Below are positions 29,980 through 39,034 of a DNA stretch of 64,000 nucleotides, one piece after another. The notes beneath the pieces are model-generated. The model did not search any database. It saw nothing but the letters and a program-made list of their open reading frames with translations, and was not told where the DNA came from. Source of the DNA: Flaviaestuariibacter flavus (GTDB taxonomy: Bacteria > Bacteroidota > Bacteroidia > Chitinophagales > Chitinophagaceae); NCBI RefSeq assembly GCF_004337505.1, contig NZ_SJZI01000002.1, positions 352,379 to 416,378 of the forward strand, written 5' to 3'. A program made the position numbers and the translations under genes. Within the stretch, counting starts at the first letter, position 1; every line of letters starts with the position of its first letter.

Positions 29980-30478
29980 ATAATTTCGAAGCTTTAATAA
30001 GCATCTTTTTCAATTCCTTTTCAAACGCTTCTTTTGAAACACCTTCTTCATAGAAACTCCGGTAGGCTGTTGCCCGGTTGATGAACAGCGTCGCCGGGAT
30101 GGCCCCCGACCACTTGGGGTCGACACGTGGGCAAAAGAGGTCGGCATTGGTTTCATCGAGAAAGTAGACCGGGGCTGTGAAGCCGCGCTTTTTTGCAAAG
30201 GCGCCCACTTTCGCATAATCCTCCGGCATGTCGAGCGATACCAGGAGGAGGCGTACACCGGCTTTTTCATACTTCTTTACCAGACCCTGGAAATACGGAA
30301 TCTCCTTGACGCATGGCGCGCAGAACGTGGCCCAGAAATTCACGACGGTCGGACGGTCGGATTCAGCGATCATTTTCTCGAGCGCGTCGATCTTCACTTT
30401 CGGCACAGAGCTTTGTGCGCCGGCGCCCAGCGAGAACAGCAGCAAGGCCGCCAGTATGATATTATTAATCTGTTTCAT
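29978..30478 (-). CDS. TlpA-like thiol-disulfide oxidoreductase
   Basis: 166 residues from the ATG at 30476-30478; a longer frame to 30577 overlaps trmH and does not resemble a signal. Signal peptide KQINNIILAALLLFSLGAGAQ, then the thioredoxin active site FWATFCAPCVKEIPYFQ (CxxC). It would reduce or isomerise disulfides in the periplasm. It overlaps the 3' end of trmH by 14 nt on the same strand, so translation is probably coupled. Confidence 0.85.
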   Translation of the reverse strand: MKQINNIILAALLLFSLGAGAQSSVPKVKIDALEKMIAESDRPTVVNFWATFCAPCVKEIPYFQGLVKKYEKAGVRLLLVSLDMPEDYAKVGAFAKKRGFTAPVYFLDETNADLFCPRVDPKWSGAIPATLFINRATAYRSFYEEGVSKEAFEKELKKMLIKASKL

Positions 30479-31058
30479 CTTGCAATCCCCATTGTTGCGC
30501 CAGCTGCGCCTGCAGCGCCGTTGGCAGTTTTGATTCGGCGTAATGCCCCGCAGCCGACTTTTGCCGGAAAGCTTCATAGAGCGTTACGGCACAGGCCACG
30601 CTGATGTTCAGCGACTGGATCATCCCCAGCTGCGGAATGATGAAATTTCCATCGGCATGTGCCAGCAACTCCTCGCTTACGCCCGCATGTTCATTTCCGA
30701 ACACAAGGGCAGCCGGAATCGTCAGGTCAGTGTCGTATAAACTTACGGCATCCGAACTCAGGTGTGTTGTTAAAATCCTTCCGTAGCGTTTCCGGAGTTC
30801 GGCTACACAGGCATCGGTGTCTGTAAACTGGTGAACGGTAAGCCACTTGTTGGCGCTGCTCGAGCTGCGGTCGCCCCACTTCTTGTGGCGGGGAATTTTG
30901 GTATTCAAAACGTAGATCTCCTGCACCCCTACCGCATCACAGCTCCGCATGACCGCGGAGATGTTGTGGGGGTCGAAAACGTTTTCCAATACGATGGTGA
31001 GGTTGTCCTGGCGTTTGGCCAGCACGGCTTCGATCTTAGCACGGCGTTCGGGGGTCAT
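30465..31058 (-). CDS. trmH: tRNA (guanosine(18)-2'-O)-methyltransferase TrmH-like
   Basis: 197 residues, SpoU/SPOUT family. Motif 1 is VFDPHNISAVMRSCDAVGVQEIYVL, motif 2 is ALVFGNEHAGVSEELLAHAD, motif 3 is IPQLGMIQSLNISVACAVTLYEAF, the three TrmH signatures in order. It methylates the 2'-O of G18 in tRNA D-loops. The N-terminal extension with RRAKIEAVLAKRQDNLTIVLENV fits TrmH and not RlmB. Upstream lies the tRNA-Pro gene on the other strand. Confidence 0.9.
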   Translation of the reverse strand: MTPERRAKIEAVLAKRQDNLTIVLENVFDPHNISAVMRSCDAVGVQEIYVLNTKIPRHKKWGDRSSSSANKWLTVHQFTDTDACVAELRKRYGRILTTHLSSDAVSLYDTDLTIPAALVFGNEHAGVSEELLAHADGNFIIPQLGMIQSLNISVACAVTLYEAFRQKSAAGHYAESKLPTALQAQLAQQWGLQDETD

Positions 31059-31163: not shown

Positions 31164-31237
31164 CGGGTGGTGGCGCAGCCCGGTAGCGCACTTGCATGGG
31201 GTGCAAGGGGTCGCTGGTTCGAATCCAGTCCACCCGA
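31164..31237 (+). tRNA. tRNA-Pro, anticodon GGG
   Basis: 74 nt. The acceptor stem cgggtgg pairs with ccacccg at 31230-31236, discriminator A at 31237. The D stem is gcgc/gcgc, the anticodon stem cttgc/gcaag with loop atggggt (anticodon GGG), and the T stem ctgg/ccag with loop ttcgaat. CCA is not encoded. A terminator follows. Its 3' part is repeated downstream. Confidence 0.93.
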
Positions 31238-31245
31238 CGAACAGT

Positions 31246-31277
31246 AAAAAAGCTCTGAAGAAATTCGGAGCTTTTTT
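31246..31277 (+). terminator. Intrinsic terminator of tRNA-Pro (first of three copies)
   Basis: Stem aaaaaagctc/gagctttttt extended by tgaa/ttcg around a GAAA loop. Identical copies lie at 31359-31390 and 31472-31503. Confidence 0.85.
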
Positions 31278-31282
31278 CATTT

Positions 31283-31350
31283 CCCGGTGCGCCCGGTAGC
31301 GCATCCCGCCTGTGGCGGGAGGGTCGCTGGTTCGAATCCAGTCCACCCGA
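31283..31350 (+). pseudogene. Damaged tRNA-Pro copy 1 (5' acceptor lost, anticodon arm replaced)
   Basis: It retains a shortened D arm (gcgc ccggta gcgc), the T arm and the 3' acceptor strand ccacccga. The 5' acceptor strand cgggtgg is missing and the anticodon arm is replaced by the palindrome tcccgcctgtggcggga. It cannot form a normal acceptor stem, so a functional tRNA is unlikely. Confidence 0.8.
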
Positions 31351-31395
31351 CGAACAGTAAAAAAGCTCTGAAGAAATTCGGAGCTTTTTTCATTT

Positions 31396-31463
31396 CCCGG
31401 TGCGCCCGGTAGCGCATCCCGCCTGTGGCGGGAGGGTCGCTGGTTCGAATCCAGTCCACCCGA
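31396..31463 (+). pseudogene. Damaged tRNA-Pro copy 2
   Basis: Same structure as the copy at 31283-31350 with the same palindrome in place of the anticodon arm. Confidence 0.8.
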
Positions 31464-31503
31464 CGAACAGTAAAAAAGCTCTGAAGAAATTCGGAGCTTT
31501 TTT

Positions 31504-31848
31504 CATTTACCGGTGCGCCTCGAAGACTACCGCTAATAAAATTGAATAGTCGTTTCGATGAACGCTGAAGAAAACAGGCGAGCAACCAAGTTTTTCAAAA
31601 TGCGTTCTGATTCATTTTTGGATCGATCAGCAGAATGGGAAACTGTCAGCGCAAACCGGCAGGCAGGAAAAAAAAATGAACCGGAACGACTTCTAACTAT
31701 AAAGGTTTCATTGTAATTTATTTTTCCCGGCCCGCATCCGCTACCGATTCACCGTCATTTTTCCTCAAATGAAACCGGGCTGCGCGCAACTCACCGCCAG
31801 TTTTCCAGATCAGGTGTTACCCTTATCAGACATTTAACAAATTATTTA
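31504..31848. other. Intergenic region downstream of the tRNA array
   Basis: A/T-richer than the genes around it. No gene, repeat or RNA is supported here. Its last part precedes the SusC promoter box. Confidence 0.5.
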
Positions 31849-38956: not shown

Positions 38957-38960
38957 TTTG

Positions 38961-39034
38961 TCGGGATGACTGGATTCGAACCAGCGGCCTCTTCGTCCCG
39001 AACGAAGCGCGCTACCGGGCTGCGCTACATCCCG
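38961..39034 (-). tRNA. tRNA-Pro, anticodon CGG
   Basis: 74 nt on the minus strand. Acceptor cgggatg/catcccg, D stem gcgc, anticodon stem cttcg/cgaag with loop ttcggga (anticodon CGG), T arm ctggttcgaatccag. CCA not encoded. A TTATTTTG-type box lies at 39114-39121 on the minus strand. Confidence 0.93.

Follow-up and report, generated by a model that had tools for sequence, protein, structure and literature searches.

REP elements and RAYT transposases pair a small nuclease with short palindromes, and group I introns with I-TevI-type endonucleases also occupy tRNA anticodon loops. The nearest described system to the locus analysed here, as judged from the accessible text of its description, is phage SegB, a GIY-YIG homing endonuclease co-localised with phage tRNAs that drives tandem tRNA-segB amplification, in arrays with microhomology between the tRNA 5' end and the segB 3' end (PMC13096335). 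The accessible part of that paper uses 'palindrom' and 'hairpin' 0 times and mentions no hairpin-substituted partial tRNA copy, and the accessible part of the 2006 survey of the GIY-YIG superfamily (PMC1564403) names no tRNA-gene-linked family. The open-access literature (preprints and most subscription journals lie outside this scope) yielded no account of tRNA copies with a hairpin-substituted arm next to GIY-YIG genes and no paper linking GIY-YIG with repetitive extragenic palindromic elements; such missing description is weak evidence of novelty.

Here we analyse a tRNA-Pro(GGG) locus in a stretch of 64,000 nucleotides of Flaviaestuariibacter flavus, hereafter the window. Behind the intact tRNA gene stand partial copies in which one arm has been exchanged for a hairpin. 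Such arm swaps go with GIY-YIG nuclease genes, and the window, which gave no GIY-YIG match, is without one.

Anatomy of the tRNA-Pro(GGG) array

The locus comprises the following features.

30465-31058, minus strand: SpoU-family RNA methyltransferase gene (ORF of 197 aa; PF00588, 119 bits), the divergent upstream neighbour and syntenic anchor
31164-31238, plus strand: intact tRNA-Pro(GGG) (ARAGORN; Rfam, 58.8 bits)
31181-31293, plus strand: unit 1, D loop to flank, with the real anticodon arm at 31191-31207 (exact comparison)
31246-31277, plus strand: terminator-like hairpin 1, GAAA loop, A/T extended stem (folding; exact comparison)
31284-31351, plus strand: hairpin-blocked tRNA-Pro copy 1, with D-like arm, palindrome, T arm and 3' acceptor strand
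31294-31406, plus strand: unit 2, anticodon arm replaced (exact comparison)
31304-31320, no strand: palindrome TCCCGCCTGTGGCGGGA, 7-bp stem, 3-nt loop
31359-31390, plus strand: terminator-like hairpin 2 (folding; exact comparison)
31397-31464, plus strand: hairpin-blocked tRNA-Pro copy 2 (tRNA-model match; exact comparison)
31407-31519, plus strand: unit 3, one base different from unit 2 (exact comparison)
31417-31433, no strand: palindrome, second copy (exact comparison)
31472-31503, plus strand: terminator-like hairpin 3 (folding; exact comparison)
31510-31519, plus strand: CCGGTGCGCC flank, the left side of the duplication join and the array end (exact comparison)

A sequence-only reading had placed a tandem 113-bp array behind the intact tRNA-Pro(GGG), and ARAGORN, Rfam, TRF and exact comparison bear this out. 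Starting from the D loop of the tRNA gene, the array (31181-31519) consists of three head-to-tail 113-bp units, supporting the tandem amplification that had been proposed; TRF reports, in the sequence as assembled, a repeat at 31208-31519 with a period of 113, 2.8 copies and 99% matches. Unit 1 is the 3' part of the real tRNA-Pro(GGG) plus a terminator. It differs from unit 2 at 15 positions, every one inside the 17-nt anticodon arm, where CTTGCATGGGGTGCAAG of the real tRNA becomes TCCCGCCTGTGGCGGGA in the copies (31304-31320 and 31417-31433); the 96 positions outside this arm are identical. A palindrome thus indeed takes the place of the anticodon stem-loop. The two damaged units, previously taken as identical, share the same arm swap and are separated by a single changed base near the 3' end.

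The hairpin-blocked copies lack the 5' acceptor strand, as had been noted. The accompanying statement that the D and T arms are kept holds for the T arm and needs amending for the D arm, of which only the 3' half is tRNA-derived, the 5' half being the flank CCGGTGCGCC. Because CCGGTGCGCC occurs both at the join between CCGGTGCGCC and CGGTAGCGCA and at the array end (31510-31519), the repeat is a tandem duplication, in whose later copies exactly one tRNA arm has been exchanged. The array is not a product of chance. An assembly artefact also appears unlikely, since the same architecture recurs in sequences of other genomes.

Each unit carries one terminator-like hairpin, and the three are mutually identical, with the terminator-bearing stretches folding at -17 kcal/mol (z -5.1), in agreement with the three terminators described earlier. 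A simple terminator scan listed none of these three array hairpins, in our reading because the T run sits within the stem. As RNA, the hairpin-blocked copy folds no more stably than shuffles (z -1.4); as DNA, it folds somewhat better (z -2.4, with 5 of 200 shuffles as good). The window copies match the tRNA model over its full length at 23.5 bits, below the cut-off of 29, and ARAGORN called neither of them as a tRNA. Neither copy therefore qualifies as a functional tRNA, that is, a match above the cut-off with an anticodon, and neither can work as one, consistent with the earlier suggestion that the products could be nonfunctional. A scan for sigma-70-type consensus sequences found no promoter within the array. 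For the window's other tRNA gene, tRNA-Pro(CGG) at 38960-39034, inspection by eye of the surrounding 800 bp revealed no hairpin copy.

The arm swap recurs within the genome

The exact palindrome TCCCGCCTGTGGCGGGA occurs genome-wide only in the two array copies. Allowing up to two mismatches yields 27 strand-matches at 25 places of the same genome, six of which hold the 17-mer TCCCGCTTTTGGCGGGA, and the pattern TCCCGN{3,13}CGGGA is mildly enriched genome-wide (172 occurrences vs 101 for the reversed control). Outside the tRNA copies, all 13 places read with similar cores, the six with TCCCGCTTTTGGCGGGA and seven others, lie in terminator-like stems (L045-L048, L247-L255) of the forms AACGTCCCGC...GCGGGACGTT and AAAGGTCCCGC...GCGGGACCTTT, making a genomic source for the hairpin core possible. 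TCCCGC...GCGGGA terminator cores often lie within longer inverted repeats and form a modest repeat family of this genome.

The sequence-only reading had envisaged capture of a palindromic element and proposed searching the genome for further copies of it. The search returned no exact copy outside the array and close variants both in terminators and at further tRNA genes, leaving capture weakly supported, by the similar terminator cores and the genomic source that they make possible. Against capture, the swap is in register with one tRNA arm, recurs at other tRNA genes with other inner sequence and accompanies GIY-YIG nuclease genes, which a reading confined to the window could not reveal.

The same swap, TCCCG...CGGGA with different but complementary inner bases, is found in this genome at tRNA-Pro(TGG) and tRNA-Val, with the arm exchanged between the same flanks as in the window, GCA and GGGTCG. 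The tRNA-Pro(TGG) locus (L029) contains three copies with TCCCGCCTTGGGCGGGA, 94 bp apart. At tRNA-Val, two loci at the ends of contigs C43 and C2 (L066 and L065, respectively) are built of 351-bp units in which TCCCGCTTTCAGCGGGA replaces TCTGCCTTACAAGCAGA, each unit with one GIY-YIG ORF (incomplete at contig or array ends). The D stems are ruined in the L029 and L066 copies. Partial copies at tRNA-Met (L068) and tRNA-Asp (L071) bear the hairpin after the anticodon loop, again with a GIY-YIG ORF. A tRNA search of the genome gave 41 matches above the cut-off; a further 11, weaker and reaching E 1 at most, are all hairpin copies (Val 8, window 2, Pro(TGG) 1).

The assembly breaks inside the tRNA-Val GIY-YIG array, at the ends of C2 and C43, with eight hairpin copies visible over both. 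A second kind of one-domain GIY-YIG protein (YILTNA...) is encoded away from tRNA genes at L067, L069 and L070 (C42:2999-3253, C50:116258-116500 and C44:76539-76805), between or beside palindromic repeats, with GTCATCCTGAGCGTAGCGAAGGATC (L069) and CGTCATTGCGAGCGCAGCGAAGCAA (L070) inverted on both sides. This combination of nuclease and palindrome looks like a REP-type pairing.

A one-domain GIY-YIG gene adjoins tRNA genes

At the Val, Met and Asp loci of this genome and in relatives, a GIY-YIG gene of ~80 codons lies between an intact tRNA and a hairpin-bearing partial copy. Loci of the downstream type consist of the intact tRNA, usually a terminator, the ORF and then a 5'-shortened copy with hairpin and 3' end, and those of the upstream type of a 3'-shortened copy with hairpin, the ORF and then the intact tRNA. 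The anticodon arm is replaced or interrupted most often, otherwise the D, variable or T arm, and the common hairpin forms are TCCCG...CGGGA and CCCCG...CGGGG. An intact tRNA is present at most loci read, the exception being an eight-unit array, L223, in which none was called. This array (G368:C34:5600-11000) is formed by eight ~365-bp tandem units; every unit combines a GIY-YIG ORF with a copy resembling tRNA-Met, and several contain two hairpins. At L089 (~1050-1360), the GIY-YIG ORF beside tRNA-Val(TAC) is interrupted by DNA with repeated palindromes of the TTCGACCTCGGAGAGGTC type; here the palindromic repeats appear to be inserted in the nuclease gene itself.

All 14 ORFs tested from related loci match PF01541 at a score exceeding its cut-off. 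The Tyr, Arg, His and Glu positions are conserved in protein A1, and the YIG motif looks degenerate at two own or near loci, L071 and L042. PADLOC, run on four proteins, gave weak matches for three, the best labelled homing endonuclease (E 2.7e-05), and a defence-system gene was rejected on these matches. Two of four proteins matched generic homing endonucleases in PHROGs, and one tblastn query against a phage collection of 50,697 records retrieved no homologue at E 1e-4; phage origin was tried and set aside.

Association with tRNA genes was assessed at 70 Bacteroidota GIY-YIG loci, a non-random sample combining the best hit in 30 of 36 genomes with 40 regions hand-chosen among the matches listed. 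A same-strand tRNA lies within 800 bp at 48 of the 70 and an opposite-strand tRNA at 0 of 70, against 0.6 expected from the tRNA density in the window's genome; the remaining 22 have no nearby tRNA. Within this sample L208 overlaps L181, and L177 belongs to the window's own genome, its intact tRNA-Val lying on another contig. A partial copy of the adjoining tRNA is found at 17 of the first 30 loci and 26 of the other 40, and an automatic count places a hairpin at 14 of the 30 and 23 of the 40, including at least two plain terminators recognised by eye (L196, L211). The 116/166 locus catalogue includes loci found via tRNAs and gives no frequency estimate.

Hairpin copies and nuclease genes across genomes and phyla

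The anticodon-arm pattern, defined as GCATCCCG, 3-16 free bases and CGGGAGGGTCG, is present in 20 of 298 genomes of the order, with 1 hit in all for the reversed control; of the 19 nearest relatives covered, only 4 have it in its exact form. Across 23 distinct cases, complementarity holds at the first inner pair in every one (23 of 23, p 1.4e-14) and at the second in 18 of 21, although the search left the free bases unconstrained. Because the inner pairs are complementary, the hairpin appears to be maintained while its sequence changes. The pattern marks 30 loci (of 42 places), with a GIY-YIG ORF in the fetched stretch at 9 and none at 21, counts that include several stretches cut off by a contig end and some overlapping loci; hairpin copies without a nuclease gene are common. 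A perfect hairpin of at least five pairs is contained in 33 of 41 distinct segments that substitute for an arm or interrupt the sequence between two tRNA pieces, and the other eight include larger-loop hairpins or two small stems by eye (e.g. L210, L232).

GIY-YIG hits were obtained in 36 of 60 Bacteroidota genomes. A scan of species genomes with five proteins yielded 62 loci, whose record titles name Bacteroidota, Neomarinimicrobiota, Patescibacteria, Planctomycetota, Terriglobia (Acidobacteriota), WOR-3, Nitrospirae and others; these phylum names are those of MAG records, in which misbinned contigs are possible. By hand count, the fetched stretch contains a same-strand tRNA at 47 of the 62, with opposite-strand tRNAs at L161 and L175. 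All 13 chosen loci with partial copies carry a hairpin, in Ser, Gly, Tyr, Trp, Ala, Asp, Thr or Pro tRNAs; 11 of these loci are titled as non-Bacteroidota phyla and two are without phylum.

Differing states of the tRNA-Pro(GGG) site in relatives

The SpoU-family gene recurs at the tRNA-Pro(GGG) loci of relatives at 60-82% identity (tblastn), defining a syntenic site that is found in differing states between species, not strains. Across eight genomes, the site holds a GIY-YIG element in two (G013, G014), an array without ORF in two (the window and G016, the latter with anticodon arm and T arm both replaced) and, in the stretch shown, neither array nor element in four (G005, G006, G012, G015). 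A ninth genome, G009, has other inserted DNA at the syntenic site, and G003 differs in the placement of the neighbour gene. The hairpins of G013 and G014 occupy the D arm and variable region rather than the anticodon arm, and these elements are therefore not the direct parent of the window array. Its parent may instead have been an element since lost, or one of the anticodon-arm type now at tRNA-Val, acting in trans.

In G009, a tRNA-Pro(GGG) 3' fragment and the intact gene are ~5.4 kb apart, separated by other DNA (L035, L036; C5:65168, 70542), probably an ordinary integrative island using tRNA-Pro(GGG) as its attachment site.

Selection, isotype tracking and fold of the nuclease

Comparison of ORF copies revealed purifying selection in several arrays. 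In L223, dN/dS ranges from 0.06 to 0.49 over 28 pairs (27 of 28 below 0.35), pairs within one array not being independent of each other. Values are 0.16 at L037, 0.16 and 0.16 at L234 (the third pair having one change) and 0.08 at L181; only silent changes separate the copies at L222, L124 and L197, and the L225 copies are identical. Less clear cases are L243 (0.53 on three changes), L165 (0.43) and the saturated L078 and L216. By these sequence measures, the nuclease copies appear to be mostly under purifying selection.

Nuclease lineage is correlated with tRNA isotype. On a tree of 109 proteins, isotype changes 35 times vs 67 in shuffled trees, a test inflated by near-copies; below 55% identity, the counts are 33 vs 42, with a minimum of 37 in 100 shuffles, and nearest neighbours share isotype in 12 of 56 cases vs 4.3 expected. 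Clustering on the tree is seen for the replaced arm as well (21 changes vs 29.6, minimum 25 in 200 shuffles). In the automatic arm table, which contains a few wrong hairpins or arms (L076, L078, L194 and L211 by eye) and repeated arrays, Val rows have the anticodon arm in 9 of 9 cases, some from one array, and at the Pro loci of the scanned protein group the hairpin lies mainly in the D arm. These patterns, in which isotype and replaced arm are confounded, suggest that nuclease lineage decides which tRNA is used and which arm is changed. G-T pairs account for 11 of 332 pairs in hairpins vs 10 of 186 in real anticodon arms, a comparison that does not separate DNA-level from RNA-level selection.

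The AlphaFold model of the nuclease has a mean pLDDT of 87. By profile and fold, its nearest relatives are UPF0213 (COG2827; 1zg2, 1ywl), followed by SLX1 (7cq2, 6seh) and I-TevI (1ln0, 1mk0), the first Foldseek match alone reaching E < 0.001. SLX1, a eukaryotic nuclease with a partner protein, is a structure-specific nuclease of branched DNA according to PDB entry titles. The model offers the suggestion, and no more, that a structure-reading nuclease family would fit a hairpin partner.

Proposed origin of the array and alternative explanations

We favour, at a probability of roughly 0.56, the reading that a family of selfish, homing-type elements of tRNA genes gave rise to the window array, which was amplified and has no nuclease gene. 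This reading builds on the anatomy of the array, the exact arm swap, the association of GIY-YIG genes with tRNA genes, the purifying selection on the nuclease gene in several arrays, the correlation between its lineage and tRNA isotype and the differing states of the syntenic site. A full element would comprise an intact tRNA gene, a one-domain GIY-YIG gene of ~80 codons and a hairpin-bearing partial tRNA copy. Its nuclease would cut the tRNA gene of its isotype at or near the arm that is replaced, and repair would place the nuclease gene between a complete tRNA, allowing the host to survive, and the partial copy, in which the hairpin would erase the cut site and thereby prevent both re-cutting and tRNA function. 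Recombination between the direct repeats could then build tandem arrays, some retaining the nuclease gene and others not; the window would be left with two 113-bp units and no gene. We infer cleavage, homing or mobility and the hairpin's role from comparative sequence patterns, among which the tracking of isotype lends indirect support to specific cleavage and homing.

The weakest links of the homing-element reading are the window itself, which has no GIY-YIG gene, and the 21 of 30 pattern loci without one. The occurrence of the same hairpin core in terminators of the same genome means that part of the likeness may be convergent or borrowed. Since an intact tRNA stays beside the nuclease, a nuclease acting on the bare anticodon arm would also cleave the locus that houses it, so its target would have to be larger or its access limited. 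Site erasure alone needs no palindrome of conserved form, and the form of the hairpin is a feature that the homing-element reading leaves unexplained. A tentative and bolder version is possible at best: an SLX1-like structure-reading nuclease and its hairpin would swap single tRNA arms and leave one intact tRNA, across at least 15 isotypes and several phyla, with the hairpin both blocking re-cutting and serving as the recognition target of the nuclease.

Neutral decay is a doubtful alternative, in which the 3' part of the tRNA was duplicated in tandem, a frequent event at tRNA genes, and its imperfect stem became a perfect palindrome by template switching during replication, with GIY-YIG genes as separate hitchhikers that share these hot spots. 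Template switching is an established route to the correction of quasi-palindromes, the join between CCGGTGCGCC and CGGTAGCGCA looks like that of an ordinary duplication and GIY-YIG is missing from the fetched stretch at most pattern loci (21 of 30). However, template switching would keep one strand of the arm, whereas 15 of 17 bases are changed here, and neutral decay would also have to accommodate the TCCCG/CGGGA rims recurring in other isotypes, families and phyla, the hairpins in D-arm, T-arm and insertion cases and the one-strand GIY-YIG association (48 vs 0 of 70). Were the copies instead tRNA-like decoys, sponges or an RNA antitoxin, released as units by the terminators as in type III toxin-antitoxin systems, one would expect the observed end-to-end matches of window and Val copies to RF00005, which lie below the cut-off, the single L193 copy at gathering score (34.9 bits) and a terminator in each unit; ToxIN, with tandem repeats beside a small nuclease, is similar in outline. 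Such a functional RNA is nevertheless unlikely, as the sigma-70 consensus scan found no promoter of the copies' own and each copy lies behind a terminator, upstream-type copies read are without the 3' acceptor strand, the RNA fold is no better than that of shuffles (z -1.4) and the D stems are ruined in L029 and L066. In the type III comparison, the Pfam label of the tested ORFs is GIY-YIG, not RNase toxin.

Capture and amplification of a genomic palindrome, for instance the core of the terminator family, would account for the 25 places with up to two mismatches and for the 13 places read, all terminator-like with the same core. We regard it as very unlikely given that the exact match is confined to the array, the rim excess is 172 vs 101, the swap is in register with the tRNA arm and omits the outer stem of the terminators, and identical rims appear in phyla whose genomes differ; a REP or captured repeat was rejected on the first two of these observations. 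The remaining candidate, att-site remnants of integrative elements with tRNA-Pro as attB, is brought to mind by the second tRNA-Pro 3' fragment of G009, ~5.4 kb off and seemingly in use by an island. At such sites the 3' fragment is uninterrupted and comes with neither a hairpin nor a D-arm part, whereas the 113-bp units contain both and directly adjoin with nothing between, an anatomy on which this barely credible origin was rejected. A group I or II intron was likewise rejected: no intron family reached the Rfam gathering score in the window or the 20 loci scanned, where the Rfam matches are to tRNA only.

Implications and comparison with known systems

If the homing-element reading holds, the tRNA genes of many bacteria, including hardly studied phyla, host tiny selfish elements that are easily missed, since damage keeps the tRNA copy from being called, as in the window, and the ORF resembles a generic GIY-YIG protein. 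They would offer a way to ask how a nuclease lives on an essential gene without host death and why a hairpin should be the scar. The same elements may also explain part of the tRNA pseudo-copies and of the assembly breaks seen at tRNA genes, the Val array ending two contigs here. If the hairpin is the active part, a selfish element would duplicate an essential gene and mark one copy as 'taken', a new way of using such a gene as a home.

Among solved structures, one-domain GIY-YIG proteins of UPF0213 and SLX1 are the nearest to the nuclease by profile and fold. I-TevI-type group I intron endonucleases (1ln0, 1mk0) have the GIY-YIG fold in common with it and differ in their setting, intron RNA being absent at the Rfam gathering score from the window and 20 loci. 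REP/RAYT systems differ in that their nuclease belongs to an unrelated family and in that the palindrome here is not of high copy number. The closest likeness is to SegB, in the accessible description of which a GIY-YIG gene adjoins tRNA genes of many isotypes and tRNA and nuclease form tandem units (PMC13096335). SegB resides in phage genomes, whereas the loci analysed here lie on bacterial chromosomes and encode proteins of one domain and ~80 aa.
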